Shown: positions 9,528 through 22,411 of the stretch, piece after piece | Layout: the number at the start of each line of letters is the position of its first letter | Position numbering within the stretch: the stretch's first letter is position 1 | Source of the DNA: Paracoccaceae bacterium | Lineage (GTDB): Bacteria > Pseudomonadota > Alphaproteobacteria > Rhodobacterales > Rhodobacteraceae | Length of the DNA: 41,772 bases | Reading direction: 5' to 3' | NCBI GenBank assembly: GCA_030065075.1 | Contig: JASJDQ010000010.1 | Coordinates: forward strand, 1 to 41,772 | Position numbers and translations under genes: made by a program | The notes under the pieces: generated by a model | What the model was told of the DNA's origin: nothing | Database searches by the model: none | Seen by the model: only the letters and a program-made list of their open reading frames with translations

Positions 9528-12500
9528 ATGAACACCGCCGCGGACATACGGCAATCGGATATTCTTGATCGATGTGTCTCAATCGATCTCGAAGTCGATC
9601 CTGAGAAAGCGAAGATATTCGCTTTCGCGGCCGTCGTGCGCGACCCAGATAGCCCTAGCCTCGTTGTGAAGGGTCACGTCGAAGCGGGACTGCCGCGGCT
9701 CGATGATTTCTGTCGAGGCTTCGATCACGTCATCGGGCACAACATTCTTCGCCATGACTTGCCACATCTCGCAGCCGCCTCACCCAGGTTTATGAAGTTG
9801 GCTGAAGCTCCAATCGACACGTTGTGGCTCAACCCATTGGCCTTTCCACGCAATCCTTATCACCACCTGGTCAAACATTACCAAGATGGTCGCCTGCAGA
9901 CGGGTCACATCAATGATCCTGAGTTCGATGCACGTCTGGTGTTCGAAGTCTTGGAAAACCAAATCAGCGAGTTTCGCCGGCTTGACGAGCGGGCGCCAGA
10001 TGCCCTGATTGCCTATCACTATTTGTGCTGTCACACACCAAATAGCGGCGGCTTTGGTCAGTTGTTCTCAGAAATCCGCGGGGCCGCGGTCCCGAAGCAA
10101 AGCGAAGCTGAGAATGCAATTCGTCGATTACTTGAGGGGGCCGCTTGCTCCGCAATGGTCGAGGAGGCCCTATCTGGACTCGAAGATACCAGTTTGTGCT
10201 GGCCCATGGCCTACGCACTTTCTTGGATTTCAGTGGCTGGCGGAGATTCTGTTATGCCGCCGTGGGTTCGCATGCAGTTCCGCGAAGCATCGCATATTGT
10301 GAAGGCCCTTAGGGATACGAACTGTGGTAGTCCAACTTGCGAGTATTGCCGCGCTCATAACGACCCAAAACAGGCTCTAAAGCGGTGGTTTGGGTTTGAC
10401 GACTTTCGTCCCGAGCCAATAGATGAGTTCGGACGTCCCCTACAAGAACGTATCGTTGAGAGTGCGATGCAGGGCGAAAGCGTTTTGGGCATTCTCCCTA
10501 CGGGTACCGGCAAATCGATCTGCTACCAAATCCCAGCGCTCTCGCGTTTTGACAAGACCGGTGCGCTGACTGTTGTGATATCTCCGCTCGTCGCGCTCAT
10601 GGCGGACCAGGTTCAAGGGTTAGCGCGGGCGGGTATCTCGTCAGCGGTGACAATAAACGGATTGCTTTCGCTTCCTGAGCGGCAGGACGCACTGGACAAG
10701 GTGCGCATGGGAGACGCAGCCATTCTTCTGATTTCGCCGGAACAGTTGCGTAGCGTGTCGGTACGCTCTGTGCTCGCGCAACGCGAAGTCGGGTTATGGG
10801 TTCTCGACGAAGCGCACTGCGTCTCGAAATGGGGGCACGATTTTAGGCCGGACTATCGATATGTTGGGCGCTTCATCAAGGAGCGGTCAGATCAAGAGAT
10901 CGCCCCGATTCTTTGTCTCACGGCTACGGCGAAACCGGATGTCGTTCAGGACATCCGAGGACACTTCAGCGAGCACCTTGGACTTGAACTCACCTTACTC
11001 GACGGCGGTGCTTCTCGCTCCAATCTAAGCTTCGAGGTTCTCCCGACCCAACGATCTACCAAATTGGCCGACATCCTCGATCGAATAGAGGAATACCTAC
11101 CTGCTACCGGCGCATCTGGCGCTGTTGTTTATTGCGCGACACGGAGCGCCACGGAACGTGTCGCCGAGTTCCTGAAGCAACAGGGTTTGGCTGCCGAGCG
11201 CTATCACGCAGGTCTTTCCGCAGACGAGAAGCGAGAAATCCAGGAAGCGTTTCGCGTCGGCGAGCTTCGCATCATCGCGGCAACCAATGCGTTCGGGATG
11301 GGCATCGACAAACCTGATATTCGTCTTGTTGTGCACGGAGACGTACCCGGTTCATTGGAGAATTACCTACAAGAAGCGGGTCGAGCGGGTCGGGACCGTG
11401 CGCCTGCTCGTTGCACGCTCCTTTTCAGTACTGAGGATGTTGATCGCCAGTTTAGCCTGAGTGCCCGCTCGCGGTTGGCGCGGCATGAGATAAGCGCAAT
11501 TCTTAAAGCCGTCCGAAGGCTTGACGGGAAGACACGCAAGAACGGGGAGGTCGTCGCGACTTCGGGTGAAATCGTCAAAGAAGAAAAAGACCAGGATTTC
11601 CAGCGCGACAGCGCCACTGACGATACGCGTGTCAAAACAGCCGTGGCTTGGCTCGAAGAGTCAAAACTCCTTCGGCGCGAGGAGAACCGCGTTCAGGTGT
11701 TCCCAGCCTCATTGCTCGTAAGGGACATTAATCAGGCCAAGTCGATCCTCGATCGCGCAGACATCACCGACACGCGACGGCGACAGCTTCTCAAGATTGT
11801 CCAGCACATCATCAACGCATCCCCCGCGGAGGGGATTTCGACAGACGACCTGAGTGGCGCCAGTGGGCTTACGGGTCCAGCCCTGCGCAGAGCGCTCACC
11901 GATCTGGAAGCGCTGGGCATCGCCAATGACGACACCAACATTACGATTTTTGTTCATGTCGGTGTAGAGAACGCTTCGCAGGCTCGGTTTGAAGCGGCTG
12001 CAAAACTTGAAGCAGGATTAGTCTCTATACTGCGGGAAGAGGCACCCGATGCTGATGATGGAGAGCCAACACCGTTCAATCTCGCAGCAACCAGCCAGGT
12101 CCTCAGAGAAGTCGGCCACGACACAGTGCGCCCAGACATTGTGGAGGGTCTTCTGCGAGGAATGGCGCAAGACGGCCGGGACATGGAAGGCGGCCGAGGA
12201 AATCTGCACGTTAGAAAGGCCTCGCGCGGAAGCCTGTTTGTTCGGCTGCAGCGCTCCTGGTCCATTGTCGACAAGACCGCCGAAATCCGGCGCCTAGGCG
12301 CCGAGCGACTTCTCTCTCATTTAATCGGGAAAGTCCCGAAGGGCGTTAGGGGTAAGGACATCGCGGTCGAAACGACCTTGGGAGGCTTGTTGGCTGCAAT
12401 AAACGGCGACGCCATGCTTCGAGGAGCCGTTAGTGACCCAAACAAACTAATGGATCGCGCGCTTCTCTGGCTCCATGAACAGGAAGTCGTAACGCTCGGC

Positions 12501-14642
12501 AAAGGACTTTCGGTTTTCCGACCGGCGATAACTCTTCACCTTGACCCTAAGGGAGGGAACTTCACGGTTCAGAACTTCGCGCCGCTTGAAGAACACTATA
12601 CTGAGCAGACCATCCAAACTCACGTCATGGCGGCCTATGCTGAGAAGGGCCTCGAAAGCATCGACGACGCCGAAAGGTTGGCGGAGGATTACTTCGTTTT
12701 GGAGCGCGATGCATTTATGCGGCGCTGGATGCCTGGACGCGGCACGGAGTTTCGCAGGCAAGCAACGGGTGCGTCTTGGACCAATATCGTCGACTCGTTG
12801 GGCAACAGCACCCAAGAGCACATCGTCCGTGACGATCGCGAGCAGACCAATGTTCTTGTGCTAGCCGGCCCGGGCTCGGGGAAAACTCGCGTTCTGGTGC
12901 ATCGCATTGCCTACCTGGTAAAGATCAAGCGGGAAGACCCGAGAGGCATTCTTGTTCTTGCCTACAATCGACATGCCGCTGCTGAAATCCGCGAGCGATT
13001 GCGCATCCTGATTGGTGATGAAGCCCGCTTTGTAACTGTTTCGACCATTCACTCCCTAGCGATGCGGCTCGTGGGAGCGAGCTTTGCAGGAACGGCCGCT
13101 GCCGAGAATCCAGATTTTGACACACTACTGATGGATGCCGTTCGACTTCTGCGCGGCGACGGCATGGACAAAATCGCCGCCGAGTCATTGCGAGATACTC
13201 TAATACAGGGATATCGCTGGCTTCTTGTCGACGAGTACCAAGATGTCGGCCCGGAAGAATATGCTCTCATTTCCACAGTTGCCGGCCGGAGTCTTGATGA
13301 TCCGGACTTGCGTATCAGCCTCTTTGCGGTGGGCGACGACGATCAGAACATCTACTCATTCGCAGGCGCTTCAATTCGCCATATCCGGCAGTTCGAAGAA
13401 GACTATTCTGCTAGGCCTGTCTTTCTGACCGATAACTACCGATCAACAAACAACATCATTACTGCGGCGAATGCGGTAATCGAACGCGCTGCAGACAGGA
13501 TGAAGACAGGCCACGACATCACGGTCGACCCAGCGAGGCGAAGCGATCCGCCAGGCGGCGAAATGGCCGGGCTTGATCCGGTTGCCCAAGGAAGAGTCCA
13601 GATTCTGGAATGTCCTGAAGGCAACGATGCACAAGCGATGGCAGCGATCGACGAGCTTGTTCGCTTATCTCGGTTGATTCCCGACTGGTCTTGGTCAAAG
13701 GCCGCCATCATCTCGCGAGATTGGAAGAAACTCGCGCCCGTCCGGGATTTCGCGGAAGCGCTAAACATTCCAGTCGAGGTCGCAAATGAACAGCTGCCCG
13801 GTCTCTGGCGAATGCGCGAAACGCAGGCGTTTGTCGAAGCGCTTCGCAAGGACCACAGCCGAGTGGTCTCGGTATCCGATTTGACCAACATTCTGAACTC
13901 GATCCCTTGCTCGCGTTGGACCAATCGCATTGGAGAGGGATTGGGCTTGCTTGCACGCGAGATCGATGATCGCAGCATGCCGGCTGCAGATGCAATTGAA
14001 TGGCTGGCCGAATGGTCTCGGGAATCCTGGGGTGAGCAACGCGGACTGAAGCTCCTAACAGCACACCGAGCAAAGGGGCTCGAGTTCGATAGTGTTGTCA
14101 TCCTCGATGGAGGTTGGGAACGCCCATCCCGGAACGAAGACCAGGACGCGCCACGACGGTTGTTTTATGTCGCGATGACCCGCGCGCGCCGAAACCTGAT
14201 AGTTATGAGCAACGACAATCACGAGTATCTTCCGACGCGAACACCCGCAATTATCAGCCGAACCGTAACGCCCGACCTTTCAACCTTCCCAGGTCCCAGG
14301 CGGTATTTCCAATCCGCTGAAACGAGCAGTGTCGATTTGTCGTTCGCAGGTCGCCTCGGCCACCAAAATGAAGCGCTGAATGCGATTGCTGATGCGAAAG
14401 TCGCCGACCCAATTGATTTGAATCTTCAGGAACATCCGTACTCAATTAGAGACGCACAGGGTAGGACCATCGGCCGTATGGCAAAGAGCTTCTCCGCTCC
14501 GCCCAACACCAAGTTTTTGCGCGGGGAAGTGGCAGCAATCGTTAGTAGGCGGAAAGAGGACAGCGACGAAGCCTACCACCATACACTTAGGCGAGATGCA
14601 TGGGAGGTTGTCGTACCTGAGTTAATTTTTGAGGTCTCGTAG
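9528..14642 (+). CDS. Exonuclease-like/RecQ-like/UvrD-like multidomain helicase
   Basis: A 1704-residue protein with three enzyme modules. (1) Residues about 15-145 look like a DEDD 3'-5' exonuclease: CVSIDLEVDPEKAKI (D20, E22), HVIGHNILRHDLPHL (D77) and PEFDARLVFEVL (D134). (2) A Cys-rich knuckle follows, CGSPTCEYCRAH (about 266-277). (3) A RecQ-type SF2 helicase spans about 290-640: LPTGTGKSICYQIPAL, DEAH in LWVLDEAHCVSKWGHDFRPDY, LTATAKPDV, AFGMGIDKPD and YLQEAGRAGRDR. (4) A long middle part with winged-helix-like segments. (5) A UvrD/PcrA-type SF1A helicase spans about 1105-1570: LAGPGSGKTRVLVHRIAYL, LVDEYQDVGPEE, GDDDQNIYSFAGAS, TAHRAKGLEFDSVV and FYVAMTRARRN. All motifs look intact. It is monocistronic and lower in GC than the host flanks. 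A role in DNA repair or in defence is inferred from architecture and its place as island cargo. Confidence 0.88.
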   Translation: MNTAADIRQSDILDRCVSIDLEVDPEKAKIFAFAAVVRDPDSPSLVVKGHVEAGLPRLDDFCRGFDHVIGHNILRHDLPHLAAASPRFMKLAEAPIDTLWLNPLAFPRNPYHHLVKHYQDGRLQTGHINDPEFDARLVFEVLENQISEFRRLDERAPDALIAYHYLCCHTPNSGGFGQLFSEIRGAAVPKQSEAENAIRRLLEGAACSAMVEEALSGLEDTSLCWPMAYALSWISVAGGDSVMPPWVRMQFREASHIVKALRDTNCGSPTCEYCRAHNDPKQALKRWFGFDDFRPEPIDEFGRPLQERIVESAMQGESVLGILPTGTGKSICYQIPALSRFDKTGALTVVISPLVALMADQVQGLARAGISSAVTINGLLSLPERQDALDKVRMGDAAILLISPEQLRSVSVRSVLAQREVGLWVLDEAHCVSKWGHDFRPDYRYVGRFIKERSDQEIAPILCLTATAKPDVVQDIRGHFSEHLGLELTLLDGGASRSNLSFEVLPTQRSTKLADILDRIEEYLPATGASGAVVYCATRSATERVAEFLKQQGLAAERYHAGLSADEKREIQEAFRVGELRIIAATNAFGMGIDKPDIRLVVHGDVPGSLENYLQEAGRAGRDRAPARCTLLFSTEDVDRQFSLSARSRLARHEISAILKAVRRLDGKTRKNGEVVATSGEIVKEEKDQDFQRDSATDDTRVKTAVAWLEESKLLRREENRVQVFPASLLVRDINQAKSILDRADITDTRRRQLLKIVQHIINASPAEGISTDDLSGASGLTGPALRRALTDLEALGIANDDTNITIFVHVGVENASQARFEAAAKLEAGLVSILREEAPDADDGEPTPFNLAATSQVLREVGHDTVRPDIVEGLLRGMAQDGRDMEGGRGNLHVRKASRGSLFVRLQRSWSIVDKTAEIRRLGAERLLSHLIGKVPKGVRGKDIAVETTLGGLLAAINGDAMLRGAVSDPNKLMDRALLWLHEQEVVTLGKGLSVFRPAITLHLDPKGGNFTVQNFAPLEEHYTEQTIQTHVMAAYAEKGLESIDDAERLAEDYFVLERDAFMRRWMPGRGTEFRRQATGASWTNIVDSLGNSTQEHIVRDDREQTNVLVLAGPGSGKTRVLVHRIAYLVKIKREDPRGILVLAYNRHAAAEIRERLRILIGDEARFVTVSTIHSLAMRLVGASFAGTAAAENPDFDTLLMDAVRLLRGDGMDKIAAESLRDTLIQGYRWLLVDEYQDVGPEEYALISTVAGRSLDDPDLRISLFAVGDDDQNIYSFAGASIRHIRQFEEDYSARPVFLTDNYRSTNNIITAANAVIERAADRMKTGHDITVDPARRSDPPGGEMAGLDPVAQGRVQILECPEGNDAQAMAAIDELVRLSRLIPDWSWSKAAIISRDWKKLAPVRDFAEALNIPVEVANEQLPGLWRMRETQAFVEALRKDHSRVVSVSDLTNILNSIPCSRWTNRIGEGLGLLAREIDDRSMPAADAIEWLAEWSRESWGEQRGLKLLTAHRAKGLEFDSVVILDGGWERPSRNEDQDAPRRLFYVAMTRARRNLIVMSNDNHEYLPTRTPAIISRTVTPDLSTFPGPRRYFQSAETSSVDLSFAGRLGHQNEALNAIADAKVADPIDLNLQEHPYSIRDAQGRTIGRMAKSFSAPPNTKFLRGEVAAIVSRRKEDSDEAYHHTLRRDAWEVVVPELIFEVS

Positions 14643-15118: not shown

Positions 15119-16063
15119 CTACTCCGAAGGATGTGTCGACACCGTCCGAAAGCCGATGTGATTTGTCCCAAGACCCGTGTCCTGAGCGTGTCTGGCTGCC
15201 GGTCTGTAGCGACCGCAGAAATCTGGCGAGCAGAGGAATGACCCTCCCTTGATCACGGCAACCGGAATATCAGGCTGCACGGGGTCGAAGCCGGTGGAAT
15301 CTACTCCTTCTGGCGGTTCGAAGCGCTTGTCAGGGTAGTAGGGGTCTTCGGTCCATTCCCAAACGTTTCCGATCATATCGTAGAGCCCATATCCGTTGGC
15401 TGGAAAGCATCCGACTTGAGCGCGTCCCATGTGACCGTCTTCAGCTGCGTCGTTCTCCGGGAACATGCCTTGCCAGGTATTCGCCATATAGACCCCTCCT
15501 GGGGTGAAGACATCTCCCCACGCAAACGGCTTGCCGTCCAAGCCTCCTCGTGCCGCATATTCCCATTCCGCTTCGGTCGGCAATGCACGGCCCCTCCAAT
15601 CCGCATAGGCTTGAGCATCTTCCAGAGAGACTTGAACGACAGGATCGTTGTCACGGCCTTCAATCGAACTGTGTGGGCCCTCGGGGTGACGCCAGTTTGC
15701 ACCTTCCACAAACTGCCATTGCATGGCGTCGAAGACGGCGGACCCGTTGGCAGGCCAGCCCGTCTCGACCATACGTTCTGCGCTGGTCACGTATCCCGTC
15801 GCCGCTACGAATTTAGCAAACTGACGGTTCGTTATTTCGTGCGCGTCAATCCGGAATGGTTCGACACTCAGTCGAACGATCGGACCTTCTTCGGCGTAGA
15901 ATCCGGTGTCTCCCATGTCGAAGGTGCCACCTTCAATGGCAACGTCGCCTAGGGGCTGAACACATATCGGGCCAGCTGCGGTCAGATGCCCACGCTCGAC
16001 AGTCGCGCCAAGTACGCCAATGGTCGTCAGAGCCGCGAAACTGGCAAGCAAAGCTGTCTTCAT
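15119..16063 (-). CDS. Formylglycine-generating enzyme family protein with signal peptide
   Basis: A 314-residue SUMF1/FGE-family protein. These enzymes oxidise the active-site Cys of sulfatases to formylglycine. The motif GGSFLCSPDFCGRYRPAAR contains both expected catalytic cysteines (C278 and C283). Other family hallmarks are VAIEGGTFDMGD, DAHEITNRQFAKFV, RALPTEAEWEYAARGG, GLYDMIGNVWEWTED and GTNHIGFRTV. The N-terminus MKTALLASFAALTTIGVLGA reads as a cleavable signal peptide, implying a periplasmic enzyme. The ATG overlaps the TGA of the preceding barrel gene (ATGA), and the gene ends an operon that begins with a Cys-type sulfatase, its obvious substrate. It appears complete. Confidence 0.9.
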   Translation of the reverse strand: MKTALLASFAALTTIGVLGATVERGHLTAAGPICVQPLGDVAIEGGTFDMGDTGFYAEEGPIVRLSVEPFRIDAHEITNRQFAKFVAATGYVTSAERMVETGWPANGSAVFDAMQWQFVEGANWRHPEGPHSSIEGRDNDPVVQVSLEDAQAYADWRGRALPTEAEWEYAARGGLDGKPFAWGDVFTPGGVYMANTWQGMFPENDAAEDGHMGRAQVGCFPANGYGLYDMIGNVWEWTEDPYYPDKRFEPPEGVDSTGFDPVQPDIPVAVIKGGSFLCSPDFCGRYRPAARHAQDTGLGTNHIGFRTVSTHPSE

Positions 16064-17043
16064 CGGTTCCTCAGAAATGCTGCGGGCACCGCCGGAGAGA
16101 TCGAGAACTTGATCGAGCTCTCCGGATTGATGCCGCTCGAAGTGGTGATGTAGTCTTGGTACTCAAGGCTGAAGCGGACCGGCAGTTTGCCGACAAAGGT
16201 TGTCTTGTTCAAACCAATGCCGACGGGAACATCGACCTCTGTTCCGCCAACGCCGTTCCAGTTGATCGAGATCGTGGGAGATGCCCCGATGGACCATTGG
16301 TTCGGCAACTTGCGATAGACGAAGTACTGGATGTTTGTCCGGTTCACGTCCGCCCGATTGTCGTCACCCGCAAACGACCACCAGTGCTGCGGAAAGAGGC
16401 CTAGCGTCCAATCCTCTCCCAGATAGGCAAGCGCGCCCGCAATCCCTGCCTGGAATTTGCCCTGACCGAGGAAATCCTCGCTTGCTGTCGGAAAGATGAA
16501 GGTCGGCCCAATGGCCCAGATCAACTTTCCGTTGCCGATTGGCGTCGTTTCATTCGGTGTGAAGAGACCGACATAGGTGATGTCGCCGAAGCCGCGCGTT
16601 GACCCTGCTAAGTCAGCGGGCGTGGGAGCGGGTCCGGTGATACCGAAGTTCAGCCCGTTAGCGTCAAAACTCACGTTCGATAGCGCATCGCTATTGATCG
16701 GAACCTTGGGAAAGCTCAACACGACGCGGTTCACAAGACTCCAGCGATCGTTCAACCGGATTGGGAACGTCGGGATCAATTTGACATTCTTGATTACCTG
16801 CTCGGTGCCGAAGAATGGTTCGGTCACGGTCTTCCTCTCATAGACGAACGGCACAGACACCATTTCGCCCACAGGGTTGTCCATCGCCCGGCTGATCTGA
16901 TCTGATGTCAGCTCACACCCGGCCTGCAAAAGGGCATCAAGCGTGGACCCGGGCTCGGCGATCAGTTCGTCGGTGCAGTTGCCCTGGGCAGACACCTGAC
17001 CGGCGAAAAGGACGCACACGAGGGAGAGAGCGAGGCGTTTCAT
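16060..17043 (-). CDS. Exported beta-barrel-like protein, second of a pair
   Basis: A 327-residue exported protein with signal peptide MKRLALSLVCVLFAGQVSAQ. After about 60 residues containing two cysteines, it shows alternating amphipathic strands and aromatic girdle-like positions (LNDRWSLVNRVVLSFPKVP, GNGKLIWAIGPTFIFPTASE, LGLFPQHWWSFAG), as in outer-membrane transporter/neuromedin-U-like proteins. It lies 3 bp after the other barrel gene and overlaps the FGE gene by 4 bases, so translation is coupled. A role in passing sulfated substrates or products across the outer membrane is inferred from context only. The terminal residue is not the usual phenylalanine, so the barrel call is moderate. 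Confidence 0.65.
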   Translation of the reverse strand: MKRLALSLVCVLFAGQVSAQGNCTDELIAEPGSTLDALLQAGCELTSDQISRAMDNPVGEMVSVPFVYERKTVTEPFFGTEQVIKNVKLIPTFPIRLNDRWSLVNRVVLSFPKVPINSDALSNVSFDANGLNFGITGPAPTPADLAGSTRGFGDITYVGLFTPNETTPIGNGKLIWAIGPTFIFPTASEDFLGQGKFQAGIAGALAYLGEDWTLGLFPQHWWSFAGDDNRADVNRTNIQYFVYRKLPNQWSIGASPTISINWNGVGGTEVDVPVGIGLNKTTFVGKLPVRFSLEYQDYITTSSGINPESSIKFSISPAVPAAFLRNR

Positions 17044-17046
17044 GCG

Positions 17047-18015
17047 TCAGAAATCGCTGCGTCGTTCCAGCACGTCATGCCAGGACCAGACAAATTGCAG
17101 CTTGGTGACCGCTGCATCCGCATCGAACCCGCCGATGTCGCCACTGACGGCCTGCATATGGCTCAATTGGAAGCTGGCATTGTCATTGACCTGATAGCCA
17201 AAGGTGAAGCCCAGGAAGTGCGCGTCGATCTCGTCGCTTGTGCCGGTCGTCAATCCGGTGGAGTTGCTGACGAATGTCTGGGCGCCGCCGTTCAGGTAAG
17301 TCCAGTCTAGCGAGGCAAAGGCATTCTTGGTGATGTCCCGCGTCAGGTGCGCTTCGACCGAGTAGAGCGGGTCTTGCTCGATGGTGTCGCCGAAGCTGTT
17401 GTCGTTATCGCCGAACCAACGGACAGCGGGCATGACTTCGAATGTCGTGCGGCGTCCGGGCACCCAATCGCCGATGTTCCACAGGATCGGCGCCGAGAGA
17501 CGGGCACTCCAGCGGTTGGAGCCCAAGTTGAGCGCTTCGTTTGCGTCGTAGGTTCCGGTTGGAGCGCTGAAATGTAGGCCGATATTGACCGAAAGCGTTT
17601 CTTCCCAGCGCAGGAAGTCCCGGACAGCAAGCTCGGGCACCCCGGCCACGTTTACCGCCGCACCGAATGTCAGATCGCCGATGCCATCCGCGAAGGTGTT
17701 GGTCGCACCCAATGGCAGGGAACTGTCGGTGTCGAGGCTACCGAACGGAAGGCTGGCCTGCCAGAGGATTGTGCGTCCGAACAACGGCTGGCTGCGAACA
17801 TAGGTTCCGACCCAGAAATCCGGCGCGACATCTAGCGTGCCGCGGTAGTTGTCGAAGACGGGGAACTTCAGGTTCGCGCGCCCATCGAAGCGCGAGAAAC
17901 TGATGATGTTCGTGTTCTTCGGGATCGGCCAGTACACCCGTGGCCCGTCGAATTCTGCGACGGCGGGTGTGCCGCCGGAGAGGCAAAGTGCCGCGATACA
18001 TAGTGCCTTTTTCAT
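17047..18015 (-). CDS. Exported beta-barrel-like protein, phenol MetA-pathway type
   Basis: A 322-residue exported protein, signal MKKALCIAALCLSGGTPAVA. The mature part has the look of the MetA-pathway-of-phenol-degradation family of outer-membrane barrels: regular amphipathic strands (TLDVAPDFWVGTYVRSQP, SFQLSHMQAVSGD), IGDLTFGAAVNV, GLHFSAPTGTYD and RTTFEVMPAVRWFGDN. It ends with a terminal phenylalanine (LERRSDF), the typical C-terminal signature for barrel insertion. The gene starts 12 bp after the sulfatase stop and is followed after 3 bp by a second barrel-like gene, so the two may form paired channels for sulfatase substrates. The substrate is unknown. Confidence 0.72.
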   Translation of the reverse strand: MKKALCIAALCLSGGTPAVAEFDGPRVYWPIPKNTNIISFSRFDGRANLKFPVFDNYRGTLDVAPDFWVGTYVRSQPLFGRTILWQASLPFGSLDTDSSLPLGATNTFADGIGDLTFGAAVNVAGVPELAVRDFLRWEETLSVNIGLHFSAPTGTYDANEALNLGSNRWSARLSAPILWNIGDWVPGRRTTFEVMPAVRWFGDNDNSFGDTIEQDPLYSVEAHLTRDITKNAFASLDWTYLNGGAQTFVSNSTGLTTGTSDEIDAHFLGFTFGYQVNDNASFQLSHMQAVSGDIGGFDADAAVTKLQFVWSWHDVLERRSDF

Positions 18016-18027
18016 CAGAGCCCCCGC

Positions 18028-19782
18028 TTACTCGGTGATTGCGTAGTTTGGTTCCTGTCCGCGCGGATACCTGTCGTCATCGACCGGCGGACGCGGCGGC
18101 AAGATTTGTTCCAAGCCGTCGTAGAATGAACGGTTCGGGCGCACGATGTTGTTGGCCCGCGCGTATTTCTTGTAGGCGTTGATCAGTGCGGCCCGTCGCC
18201 CGGGCTGGCTGGCCGACAGGTCGCGTGTCTCGCCGGGATCGCGGGAGACGTCGAACAATTCCCAGCGGTCGTAGCCAAATGGCTTCGGCATCCACACGAC
18301 CTTATAGCGGCCGCTTCGCGCGTATTGCGCGCCGAAGAACTGCCCTGCGATAATGCCGCCATCCGAGCGTGGGTTGGAGGATTTGCCCTGTAGGAGGGGC
18401 ACCCAGGAGCGGCCTTGCATGCCCTTGCTGTTCGCACCCGCCAACCGCGTCAGTGTCGGCGCGATGTCCTTGACGTGCATCAGCGCGCTGCGGTTGACCT
18501 TGCCTTTATCGCCTATTCCCTTGTGCCAGACGATCAGCGGCGACCGGATGCCACCCTCATAGCCCGAACCCTTGTAGGCCTTGAACGGCGTGGCCGAGAC
18601 CTGTGCCCACGGGGCGCCATAGGCCATGTAGCTGTAGCTCCGGCCATAGGACGAGAAATCGACACGGTAGTTGTTCGGATACCACGCCGAGCTGGATAGG
18701 GCCGGTCGGTTCTTTGCGTTCTGGATCGGATCGTTGCCCTCGGGCCCGTTATCCGAAAAAAACAGCACAATGGTGTTGTCGGCTTGTCCGGACTTTTCCA
18801 GATACTTCATCAACTCGCCGACCTGGAAGTCGAGATATTCGACCATCGCGGCATAAACTTCCATCCGGCGAGCTTGCTGGACCTGCGCCGCTCCAAGCAG
18901 GTCGTCGAACTCGGGGATGTACCACAGACGGGGCGGCAGTTTCGCAGTCCTTGGCACGACGCCCAACCGTTTTTGCCGGGCCAAGCGCTGCTGTCGCAGC
19001 TTGTCCCAGCCCATGTCGTACTTGCCCTTGTACCTCCAGAGCCATTTCTTCGGCACCTGCAGCGGATCATGAGGCGCCTGGAAGGACAGGTACGCAAAGA
19101 AGGGTTTCCCGTTCTTCCGTCCCTCTTCGATGTAGCCCTCGAGCTTGTCGGTGAAGGTCAACGAGGAGTAATAGCCGCGCGGCAGGCGGCGAAGATATTT
19201 GGTATTTTCCACGAACTCGCTTTTGGGGCTGACTTCGTTTGCTCCGGTCAGGTCAAAATGGCTGCCTGCGGCGTTCAGGAGCGAGAAGCTGCGGTCAAAC
19301 CCACGCGCCGCAGGAATGTGGCGAGGTGAATGGCCCAGGTGCCACTTACCAGCCATGTAGGTCCGGTAGCCCGCCGCCTTCAGACGCTCAGGCAGCGTGG
19401 GCACGCGGGTCGAAAGCACCCCTTCATAGCCTTCGAGATCGAGCTGGTTCGGGGCGGTCTGCTCATACATGTTGCCAAGACCGACCCGGTGATTGTCGAT
19501 CCCGGTGAGCAGCATGGCTCTTGTCGGAGAACAGGTCGCGCCGACATAGAATTCGGTATAGCGATGCCCCTCTTTCGCCAGACGATTCAGGTTCGGCGTC
19601 CGGATTTCGCCGCCGAACGCACCGATGTCGGAGAAGCCCAGATCGTCGGCTACGATCACCACAAAGTTCGGGCGTTTGTCCTGCGCGATTGCGAACTGCG
19701 CCAGTCCGATCACGCAGATGAAGACGGCCAGTAATAGCCTCTTGATGAATGCTTCTTTGCTTACCAAAAGTTCAAAGTTCAT
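18028..19782 (-). CDS. Cys-type arylsulfatase family protein, exported
   Basis: A 584-residue hydrolase of sulfate esters. The N-terminus (MNFELLVSKEAFIKRLLLAV followed by a hydrophobic run ending QFAIAQ) is a signal peptide with a slightly long n-region. The core begins RPNFVVIVADDLGFSDIG, with the metal-binding Asp pair. The sulfatase signature is GATCSPTRAMLLTG, with the formylglycine precursor at C84 in CSPTR. The second signature-like box is GKWHLGHSPRHIPAARGFD. The remaining metal ligands lie in FFSDNGPEGND. Its length is usual for arylsulfatases. It is the first gene of the minus-strand operon with two barrels and an FGE, which could mature it. Direct repeats upstream (19857-19884) suggest LytTR control. 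The natural substrate is not evident. Confidence 0.93.
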   Translation of the reverse strand: MNFELLVSKEAFIKRLLLAVFICVIGLAQFAIAQDKRPNFVVIVADDLGFSDIGAFGGEIRTPNLNRLAKEGHRYTEFYVGATCSPTRAMLLTGIDNHRVGLGNMYEQTAPNQLDLEGYEGVLSTRVPTLPERLKAAGYRTYMAGKWHLGHSPRHIPAARGFDRSFSLLNAAGSHFDLTGANEVSPKSEFVENTKYLRRLPRGYYSSLTFTDKLEGYIEEGRKNGKPFFAYLSFQAPHDPLQVPKKWLWRYKGKYDMGWDKLRQQRLARQKRLGVVPRTAKLPPRLWYIPEFDDLLGAAQVQQARRMEVYAAMVEYLDFQVGELMKYLEKSGQADNTIVLFFSDNGPEGNDPIQNAKNRPALSSSAWYPNNYRVDFSSYGRSYSYMAYGAPWAQVSATPFKAYKGSGYEGGIRSPLIVWHKGIGDKGKVNRSALMHVKDIAPTLTRLAGANSKGMQGRSWVPLLQGKSSNPRSDGGIIAGQFFGAQYARSGRYKVVWMPKPFGYDRWELFDVSRDPGETRDLSASQPGRRAALINAYKKYARANNIVRPNRSFYDGLEQILPPRPPVDDDRYPRGQEPNYAITE

Positions 19783-19898: not shown

Positions 19899-20741
19899 TC
19901 ACGAAGCGTCACTGAAGCCTATGTCGTCGGCAAATCTCGCCATCTCGGCTTGATGGCTGCGCGAGACCGGCAGGCGCGTCCCATTCTTCAGTTCAACGCA
20001 CATCTTGCCGTTCGTCCGAACGAGTTTTTCAATGCCGGCGCGATGCACCCAATGAGAGCGGTGGACTTGCAGTCCGGTCATTGCGTGACACTGCTCCACG
20101 GCGTCAGAGAGCCGCATGAGAAGCAACTCCTCGCCCGCCTCCGTCGCCACCCGCACATAGTGCCGCTCCGCCGACAGGGCCCACAACTGACCGACCGTCT
20201 TGGGAGAGAGCCGCTTGAAGAAATCGGGCGGCGCTTCGAGATCGTCGGCGGAGGTCGCGGTGTCGGTTTCGGTTGAGGCCTCCGGTTGACGTTCTTCGGG
20301 AAGGCGCGATTTCCACCAACGAAAGCTCAGGACCATCCAGAGCATTGACCCCAAGGTGGCGTGAAGCACCAGACCTGCCGGATAGGTTGCCTTCAGCCAG
20401 ACCCAGAACGCGTCGCGCGTCGCATCCGACCCGACGACCAAGCCGGAAATCCACAAGGCATTCATCGAAAGCGCCGTCGATGGAATGGCTGCCAACACAC
20501 ATCCGATCAGCGACGCGGCGCGGGTCGAGCACAAGGTGCAATATCGCGCCATCAACACCGCGAAGGCGGTTTGCAGTGGCAGGGCGATCGTGACCAAGAC
20601 GATGGATTGAAGGAGAACATTGGTGATCGCCGCTGCGTCGCCGAATTCGCCGATCAAGCGCGACAGGCCAACGATCAGGAACGCCGCGAATAGAACCCCG
20701 ATATGGTGCCGCCAAAAGCTATGATCTTGAAGAATTGCCAA
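19899..20741 (-). CDS. Membrane-bound LytTR-domain transcriptional regulator
   Basis: A 280-residue one-component regulator. Residues about 13-145 hold four hydrophobic segments (HIGVLFAAFLIVGLSRLIG, TNVLLQSIVLVTIALPLQTA, AASLIGCVLAAIPSTALSM, GLVLHATLGSMLWMVLSF). After a linker rich in E, T and S comes a LytTR DNA-binding domain: LWALSAERHYVRVATEAGEE, LLMRLSDAVEQCHAMTGLQV and VHRSHWVHRAGIEKLVR, ending TRLPVSRSHQAEM. No receiver domain or histidine kinase is present, so the membrane part is probably the sensor. The start at 20741 is a TTG and is uncertain. It is a paralogue of the next gene upstream. The direct repeats on both sides of this gene suggest autoregulation and control of the sulfatase operon. 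Confidence 0.85.
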   Translation of the reverse strand: MAILQDHSFWRHHIGVLFAAFLIVGLSRLIGEFGDAAAITNVLLQSIVLVTIALPLQTAFAVLMARYCTLCSTRAASLIGCVLAAIPSTALSMNALWISGLVVGSDATRDAFWVWLKATYPAGLVLHATLGSMLWMVLSFRWWKSRLPEERQPEASTETDTATSADDLEAPPDFFKRLSPKTVGQLWALSAERHYVRVATEAGEELLLMRLSDAVEQCHAMTGLQVHRSHWVHRAGIEKLVRTNGKMCVELKNGTRLPVSRSHQAEMARFADDIGFSDAS

Positions 20742-20857: not shown

Positions 20858-21805
20858 TTACGCGGGTAGAAATTCGGCCAGTTCCTCTCTGACCGCGCCG
20901 CTGAAACTTCTGGACACAGGCAACTCGATATCGTTCTCAAGTTGGACGGAGAGGTTGTTTCCGGCGGCTTGCAAGGCTTGTACTGCGTCATAGCTGATCC
21001 AATGCGACCGGTGAATGCGCATGCCTTGTTCGCTCGGAACCTTTCCAATGGCCTCGCTGAAAGGCATAAGCACAAGGTCGTCACCGACATTGGTGTGAAT
21101 GCGGACATAGTGCTGCTCCGCGGATATCGCGAGAAGTCGGCCCCGTTTCTCGGGCGGCAGCTTTCGCTGCAAACTCCTGGTCTCGTCCGTGACAATGGCG
21201 TTGGGCACACTATCGGCTTTCTCGGACGGCGGCTGGTCTTCCAGATGCGCCACCCACCAGCGAAAGTTGAGCAGCATCCAGAGCAGCGGGCCAAGCGTGG
21301 CAAAGCCGAAGAAAATGAAGTGCAGGCGGGAGGCGACGTTCTCGAAGAACTGTTGCCTTGTTTCGACAATGGCCGAACCGGTCGGCATGACACCTGCGAG
21401 CCAACTGAGCGACGGACTGAGAATCGCCGCCGGGAAGGCAGCAAGAAAGCATCCAGCGATCGCGCATACCGAAAGCGGAATGCGGCCACTAAAGGCAGAC
21501 ATGGCAGACGACGCAAAAAGCGTCTGAAACGGATACGACACGGCGACCAGGATCACCGAGTGTATGAAGACACCGGTCAGGTCAGTGCCGTTACCTGCGG
21601 CTCCGACAGTCCGCGAGGCCGTAAGAATCAGAACAGCCGCTGCGCAAACGATCAGGCTGTGAAGCCAAAGGTTCCTCCGCAAGTCAAAAAAGGACCCCAC
21701 CCCTCTTCTCCGCGGTTCATAGACAGTGACAATGGCTGCAGCATACTCCATCGTATCGCTTTGGAAAAGCAAAACGAGAGGACGGACGTTGCCAGCGGTG
21801 GCCAT
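20858..21805 (-). CDS. Second membrane-bound LytTR-domain regulator
   Basis: A protein of up to 315 residues and a paralogue of the adjacent LytTR gene. Membrane segments (NLWLHSLIVCAAAVLILTAS, FIHSVILVAVSYPFQTLFAS, SVCAIAGCFLAAFPAAIL, RLHFIFFGFATLGPLLWML) precede a linker and the LytTR domain RLLAISAEQHYVRIHTNVGD, LMPFSEAIGKVPSEQGMRI and HRSHWISYDAVQAL, ending IELPVSRSFSGAV. No strong ribosome site supports the ATG at 21805. An internal ATG at 21751 (MEYAAAIV) is a reasonable alternative. Conservation of the four-segment membrane module in both copies suggests they sense a related signal, or form a heterodimer on the paired repeats nearby. Confidence 0.83.
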   Translation of the reverse strand: MATAGNVRPLVLLFQSDTMEYAAAIVTVYEPRRRGVGSFFDLRRNLWLHSLIVCAAAVLILTASRTVGAAGNGTDLTGVFIHSVILVAVSYPFQTLFASSAMSAFSGRIPLSVCAIAGCFLAAFPAAILSPSLSWLAGVMPTGSAIVETRQQFFENVASRLHFIFFGFATLGPLLWMLLNFRWWVAHLEDQPPSEKADSVPNAIVTDETRSLQRKLPPEKRGRLLAISAEQHYVRIHTNVGDDLVLMPFSEAIGKVPSEQGMRIHRSHWISYDAVQALQAAGNNLSVQLENDIELPVSRSFSGAVREELAEFLPA

Positions 21806-21829: not shown

Positions 21830-22411
21830 TTACGAAATCAACAGTCCTAACAGGTGATCCGCCAACCCCTCCGTCATGGGCTCTTTTATGATCAGGGTGC
21901 GTTGAAAGACCGTTCCCACTATGACGTCCAGGATAAACTGCGTGTTATCGGACGCCATGTCGCCGCGCTCGATCCCGCGCTCGATCGCCTGCGCGGCAGT
22001 CAAGCGCCACGGATAAACATACTTCTCTCGGAACACTGCTGCCATCTCGGGATCGGCCTCGACGGTCGTGATCGCCGCGAAAATCACGATGGATGCCAGC
22101 GGGCGGGAAAAGGTCTCGATGAGTTGCTCGATGGCGCTTCTAAGGTCGTCCTCCGTCGTCCCTCTGTCGGGAACCGAGCCAATGGCGATCTCGTCCGCCG
22201 CGGCATCCAGCACAAGGACACCCTTTGTGGGCCACCATCTATAAACGGTCGACTTGCTTGCTCCAGCACGACTTGCGACTCCCTCCATCGTGAGCCGTTG
22301 GTAGCCAGACTCAAGAAGAAGCTCCCGCGCGGCGGCCAAAACGGCCTCACGTGTCTTCGTACTTCGAGGCCGCCCACGACGCGGCGGGACGTCGGCTGAT
22401 TCATCCGTCAA
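21830..22411 (-). CDS. TetR/AcrR-family transcriptional repressor
   Basis: A 193-residue regulator, starting at TTG 22411 preceded by AGGAG at 6 bases. Residues about 18-65 form the TetR HTH: TREAVLAAARELLLESGYQR, LTMEGVASRAGASKSTVYRWWPTK. The C-terminal part has the TetR_C-like helical region with VEADPEMAAVFREKYV and RGIERGDMA. It is divergent from an exported amidohydrolase gene, with an 18-bp near-palindrome (22456-22473) between the two starts, so it probably represses that gene and itself. The inducer is likely a substrate or product of the amidohydrolase. Confidence 0.9.
   Translation of the reverse strand: MTDESADVPPRRGRPRSTKTREAVLAAARELLLESGYQRLTMEGVASRAGASKSTVYRWWPTKGVLVLDAAADEIAIGSVPDRGTTEDDLRSAIEQLIETFSRPLASIVIFAAITTVEADPEMAAVFREKYVYPWRLTAAQAIERGIERGDMASDNTQFILDVIVGTVFQRTLIIKEPMTEGLADHLLGLLIS

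Follow-up and report, generated by a model that had tools for sequence, protein, structure and literature searches.

The FGE gene at the end of a sulfatase operon

We analysed a stretch of DNA of 41,772 nucleotides from a Paracoccaceae bacterium (assembly GCA_030065075.1, contig JASJDQ010000010.1; this whole stretch is called the window), which contains the gene of a formylglycine-generating enzyme (FGE) behind that of a sulfatase. Four genes run on the minus strand in the order sulfatase (18028-19782), two middle genes (17047-18015 and 16060-17043), and FGE (15119-16063). The gaps along this order are 12, 3, and -4 bp, and the overlap consists of an ATGA in which the ATG start codon of the FGE gene overlaps the stop codon of the preceding gene. 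An earlier reading of the DNA without database searches (the sequence-only reading) had placed the FGE in a sulfatase operon; its coordinates and strand were exact, and the FGE gene is indeed the last in a run of four that begins with an exported Cys-type sulfatase of motif CSPTR.

The sulfatase has 584 aa and is the presumed substrate of the FGE. It matches PF00884 with 221 bits and contains CSPTRAMLLTG, and the PF00884 match together with CSPTR at C84 identifies it as a Cys-type S1 sulfatase. Cys84 (codon 19531-19533) is the residue of the CxPxR motif that is expected to become formylglycine. Residues 1-33 (19684-19782) form a signal peptide that ends with AIA before Q, lacks a twin arginine, and was classed as Sec/TM (transmembrane) with a score of 3.59 under the KD10 rule described below. 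The protein contains only two cysteines, C23 within the signal and the catalytic C84, and none else after the signal.

The last gene encodes a protein of 314 aa that matches PF03781 (253.9 bits, cut-off 23.3), covering positions 6-254 of the 255 in the model. Its closest sequences in the PDB are the FGEs of T. curvata, S. coelicolor, and human (214-239 bits). C278 and C283 (15215-15232, within GGSFLCSPDFCGRYR) align with the copper-binding catalytic cysteine pair of these solved FGEs. The only other cysteines are C34 (codon 15962-15964) and C219 (codon 15407-15409, within VGCF). The AlphaFold2 (AF2) model has a pLDDT of 87.4 and a pTM of 0.84, and Foldseek ranks T. curvata 5nxl and human FGE as its best matches, with a TMq of 0.77 and a TMt of 0.85-0.89. 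Judged by its sequence, the gene product is a canonical FGE with both copper cysteines, as the sequence-only reading had stated.

A protein of this fold could be exported without making formylglycine on sulfatases, having another target or a structural role like OCTIN, PvdO, and GldK. Passages of PMC5915273 describe bacterial OCTIN as a periplasmic protein with the FGE fold and without FGE activity, and GldK, PvdO, and PorK are weak matches to the window FGE. However, OCTIN is described in the same passages as having no catalytic cysteines, whereas the window FGE keeps both copper cysteines. The NCBIfam models of PvdO, GldK, and EgtB gave 62.4, 114.4, and 105.8 bits, far under their cut-offs of 500, 350, and 360, and the gene lies in a sulfatase neighbourhood. 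We consider a role other than formylglycine formation very improbable.

Export signal and cysteine pattern of the FGE

Export signals were called with a fixed hydrophobic-window rule (KD10, export threshold 2.0) and by reading the N-termini by eye. The N-terminus of the window FGE (MKTALLASFAALTTIGVLGATVERG) has a Lys and an uncharged stretch that ends in small residues, with neither a twin arginine (RR) nor a lipobox. It scores 2.09 and is a Sec-type signal peptide, covering residues 1-20 (16004-16063) with predicted cleavage near residue 19 or 20. The absence of an export signal, by which a cytosolic prokaryotic FGE is recognised, was thus not found here. The next in-frame Met is M50, which lies inside the domain, so that a signal-less protein begun at an ATG would miss the start of the domain.

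Relatives were surveyed in 80 named loci, in genomes of the window's family and class, and in two broader samples, of 385 and of 398 genomes. The survey gave 179 distinct copper-motif FGEs; L034 and L035, which have no copper pair, and domains shorter than 200 or longer than 420 aa were left out. A cysteine at position 219 was found in 50 of the 179. Among these, 44 score at least 2.0 and four fall just short at 1.97-1.99; L019 was called exported by eye, and the sequence of L253 is N-masked, so that by rule and eye all 49 assessable members have an N-terminal export signal. Many show clear lipoboxes or strong TM segments, and some are therefore lipoproteins. The 129 FGEs without Cys219 include 15 that pass the threshold, 12 of them exported by eye and three artefact-like. 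As a control, only 3 of 117 FGEs labelled cytosolic reach the threshold (L031, L084, and L303), and these calls were judged to be artefacts of an upstream reading frame. L115 is a lipoprotein by eye, although it falls below the threshold; it was labelled cytosolic in the 182-row tree and exported in the maximum-likelihood (ML) tree and in the analyses of partner sulfatases and cysteine counts. The label exported denotes Cys219 or a protein named exported by eye (12 rows in the 182-row tree). The claim of a clear signal peptide on the FGE was borne out by the sequence, by the KD10 rule, and by these relatives.

The extra cysteines follow the same division. A further cysteine between signal and domain, C34 in the window FGE, is present in 49/49 assessable Cys219 FGEs (L018 counted by eye, the script having read its cysteine as a lipobox). 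It is absent from all 12 exported FGEs without Cys219 and, by eye, from L115; in L311 the sole cysteine flagged by the script lies within the membrane segment and was not counted as extra. The N-terminal cysteine and Cys219 thus come and go together, as expected of a disulfide, and C34 is the candidate partner of Cys219. Every one of the 50 Cys219 FGEs has exactly three domain cysteines, namely the copper pair and Cys219, as against 3-9, mostly 5-6, in 116 cytosolic FGEs. The copper pair supplies the only domain cysteines in 7 of 13 exported FGEs without Cys219. The cysteine of the GFRC motif is kept in 99/129 FGEs without Cys219 and in 0/50 with it. This pattern is what would be expected of one structural disulfide without spare thiols.

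These results bear on whether the N-terminus is a working signal at all. If it were not, the enzyme would be cytosolic like the characterised prokaryotic FGEs, whose cytosolic residence is stated in the excerpted text of PMC4505483, and its score of 2.09 is below that of many members of the clade. Against this stand the signal in every assessable Cys219 member, often as an unmistakable lipobox or TM segment, and the depletion of cysteines, which fits an oxidising compartment. A cytosolic location of the window FGE is hardly credible on this evidence.

Cys219 is the hallmark of an exported clade. The ML tree (95 rows) placed the Cys219 FGEs and the losses among them in one group of 56 with an SH-aLRT of 96; a second exported group of 7 had 97 and the main cytosolic group 95. 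Among the exported FGEs, the ML tree shows five changes of the Cys219 label, and three of these fall on starred branches. Because Cys219 and the N-terminal cysteine were entered as identical in the pair test on this tree, 3/3 starred pairs agree by construction, and the number indicates no more than a minimum of three separate changes. On the FastTree tree (182 rows), exported versus cytosolic FGE requires two changes, the root being not placed and no ancestral state assigned. In neither tree does human FGE join the exported bacterial clade.

Some individual proteins may be recorded here. The Hellea metagenome-assembled genome (MAG; G157, locus L054) has three exported lipoprotein-type FGEs (L136, L152, and L238), and L136 has lost both extra cysteines. 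L242/L355 of G237 is a strong exported-FGE match broken by a TAA stop. L193/L160 of G098 is an exported FGE-fold protein without copper cysteines and with a CxxC near its N-terminus. L022-L033, from relatives of the window genome, are cytosolic by eye and make up an FGE group of their own, in which a CC pair (such as NCCAP) lies close to the N-terminus. A gammaproteobacterial MAG (G148, locus L043) gave 21 PF03781 matches, several of them in open reading frames (ORFs) of about 870-1250 aa, some with two or more FGE domains.

Partner sulfatases and gene neighbourhood

As the partner of an FGE we took the closest Cys-type sulfatase on the same strand, up to 4 kb away, and 152 distinct FGEs were compared, 61 exported (among them L355 and L358, with broken or masked N-termini) and 91 cytosolic. 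Partners of the exported FGEs were of the Sec/TM class in 29 cases, a lipoprotein in one, and of the Tat class in two (L332 and L320, both doubtful by eye), and 29 had no partner. The cytosolic FGEs had 35 Tat partners, 18 without signal, and seven Sec partners, and 31 had none. Sec/TM/lipoprotein sulfatases thus made up 30/32 partners beside exported FGEs versus 7/60 beside cytosolic FGEs (Fisher P = 2.7e-15, a value that overstates independence because exported and cytosolic FGE differ by only two changes on the FGE tree). On the sulfatase tree the FGE label changes 15 times. Eight independent starred pairs on that tree gave 4.9 in the expected way, 0.2 in the opposite way, and 2.9 without difference, with a median sign-test P of 0.0625.

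The same matching of export route was seen within the CxAxR sulfatases, where 6/6 beside exported FGEs were Sec while those beside cytosolic FGEs comprised three Sec, 22 Tat, and 12 with none (3/37 Sec). Overall, 43 of 92 adjacent Cys-type sulfatases are CxAxR rather than CxPxR, and cytosolic FGEs (L045, L047, L050, L052, L056, and others) often adjoin CTAGR (CxAxR) sulfatases, mostly Tat-type or signal-less. The catalytic cysteine is the only cysteine in 24/32 partners of exported FGEs, in 9/35 Tat partners, and in 0/18 signal-less partners.

In a clustering of the ORFs that lie up to 5 kb from 60 exported loci, sulfatase was the commonest sense neighbour, at 44/60 loci, with 8 of the 52 ORFs in its cluster on the other strand. 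Antisense shadows of FGE and sulfatase aside, the smaller recurrent clusters were SDR-like and TetR-like by eye. No copper chaperone or Dsb gene was recurrent in this ORF clustering, in which clusters were not Pfam-scanned. Neither middle gene of the operon was recurrent (0 and 1 linked loci). The gene at 17047-18015 encodes a predicted outer-membrane barrel-type protein of 322 aa (PF13557, Phenol_MetA_deg, 77.6 bits). That at 16060-17043 encodes a 327-aa protein, probably exported by its signal-like N-terminus as read by eye; it has no match in Pfam or NCBIfam and 25% identity to an ORF in L131. Upstream of the operon lie two adjacent genes of LytTR-domain proteins (19899-20741 and 20858-21805, minus strand), probably membrane-anchored, and a TetR regulator gene on the same strand (21830-22411). 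On the plus strand, a 1704-aa ORF (9528-14642) resembles by eye a RecQ-like helicase fused to a UvrD-like one, and its N-terminus may be exonuclease-like.

Probable maturation outside the cytoplasm and comparison with known systems

The sequence-only reading had suggested that enzyme and sulfatase may meet outside the cytoplasm, and that a second, cytoplasmic FGE as the real activator would speak against it. No second copper-motif FGE was found in the window's own genome, of which the assembly is 83% complete. No anSME match rose above the cut-off in 15 genomes tested, including this one. In the two broader samples, 37 genomes had a checked Cys219 FGE, counting the window's own and the truncated one of G326. 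Three of them (G130, G365, and G709) have a cytosolic-type FGE as well (E 1e-60); in the others, no cytosolic-type FGE was present among the matches read (the second match of G738 aside, and with matches of the second sample fetched in part). The meeting outside the cytoplasm gains comparative support from the well-supported Cys219 clade, its cysteine pair, its cysteine economy, and its Sec partners.

Sec transports unfolded chains, so modification after crossing would be natural if an FGE waits there. Tat transports folded proteins, as stated in an extract of PMC3305326, and a Tat sulfatase can thus be modified beforehand in the cytosol. FGE uses copper and oxygen, has no active-site disulfide, and works in both reducing and oxidising compartments, according to the portion of PMC4505483 consulted; its chemistry would therefore permit maturation in the periplasm. 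We consider it probable, from sequence comparison, that the window FGE is exported by Sec and matures a Sec-exported, unfolded sulfatase in the periplasm. There the enzyme would be loaded with copper, and a Cys34-Cys219 disulfide would tie its N-terminus to the domain. Sec would carry the partner sulfatase across as an unfolded chain whose active-site cysteine is still unmodified, and the periplasmic FGE would convert this cysteine to formylglycine before or during folding. Since the mature sulfatase has no cysteine besides the catalytic one, this residue would have no wrong internal disulfide partner in the oxidising periplasm before modification.

Besides the limited independence of the partner comparison and the sign test on the sulfatase tree, several observations weigh against periplasmic maturation. 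The AF2 model of the window FGE is of low confidence over most of residues 1-30. No same-strand Cys-type sulfatase lies within 4 kb of the 29 partnerless exported FGEs, some of which are at contig ends. Neither FGE nor sulfatase was matched in the same-genus genomes G001-G004, while the window's own genome (G000) has both, which suggests gain or loss of the whole operon. Signal-less Cys-type sulfatase-family proteins persist in genomes without a cytosolic copper-motif FGE (7/9 in G024, 6/14 in G042, 3/7 in G098, and 4/5 in the window's own genome). The expectation that all Cys-type sulfatases are exported where the exported FGE is the sole copper-motif FGE failed on these many signal-less proteins. 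Relatives of the window sulfatase were matched in 20/147 related genomes, including all eight with an exported FGE. The expectation that Sec relatives occur only alongside an exported FGE failed on five genomes: G038, G009, and G035 have Sec Cys-type sulfatases although neither a PF03781 match at E 1e-10 nor an anSME above the cut-off is present, and in G039 and G017 such sulfatases occur without a strong FGE. These genomes indicate that another maturation route exists and that the exported FGE is not the sole way.

An unidentified system, such as that of E. coli, might instead mature the sulfatase in the cytoplasm ahead of export, and the exported FGE would then be a back-up or would rescue escaped molecules. 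The part of PMC5870055 consulted attributes formylglycine in E. coli to an unknown endogenous enzyme, and a suspected third formylglycine system is named in a passage of PMC8379841. A mere back-up, however, would not predict that the exported FGE has sulfatase as its most frequent sense neighbour or that the export route of the sulfatase shifts with the type of FGE. Maturation before export is in our view unlikely, and we favour maturation in the periplasm.

More broadly, we lean towards two compartment-matched aerobic pathways. A cytosolic FGE would serve Tat and cytosolic sulfatases, and a periplasmic, disulfide-stabilised FGE would serve Sec sulfatases stripped to the catalytic cysteine. 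The second would be a bacterial parallel of the eukaryotic secretory pathway, with FGE export in at least two lineages. A conserved exported branch would make the time and place of bacterial sulfatase activation directly testable, would connect maturation with the chemistry of copper and thiols in the periplasm, and would explain why some exported Cys-type sulfatases can use Sec. A disulfide-stabilised, cysteine-poor FGE may also be useful for aldehyde tagging of periplasmically produced proteins.

No exported bacterial FGE was found in our searches of open-access papers, subscription papers being outside the scope, and such signals may already be flagged in protein databases. The window FGE shares fold, copper pair, and domain length with the FGEs of S. 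coelicolor and T. curvata, and related cytosolic FGEs also adjoin sulfatases. Those two enzymes differ in having A or S at position 219, a Cys at 307 (GFRC), and 5-6 domain cysteines; they belong to another clade and, by the excerpt of PMC4505483, to the cytosol. Human FGE (SUMF1) enters an oxidising compartment of the secretory pathway and contains structural disulfides, but these are C218-C365 and C235-C346, at other sites (PMC4505483, same excerpt). It has Ala at position 219 and is distant on the tree. The resemblance to the eukaryotic secretory pathway drawn by the sequence-only reading therefore holds in logic and fails in detail.

The nearest published case is bacterial OCTIN, which according to the passages of PMC5915273 has an FGE-type domain exported to the periplasm and disulfides; it differs in its N-terminal extension, its lack of FGE catalytic cysteines, and its intermolecular disulfides. 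The window FGE, with 314 aa and both cysteines, shows neither such an extension nor such a loss. PvdO, GldK/PorK, and EgtB share the FGE-sulfatase fold, and PvdO and GldK/PorK are extracytoplasmic; the window FGE is far under the NCBIfam cut-offs of this group. The enzyme anSME also forms formylglycine on sulfatases, but it is a radical SAM enzyme. Set beside these systems, the exported FGE is a newly seen variant of a known enzyme family.

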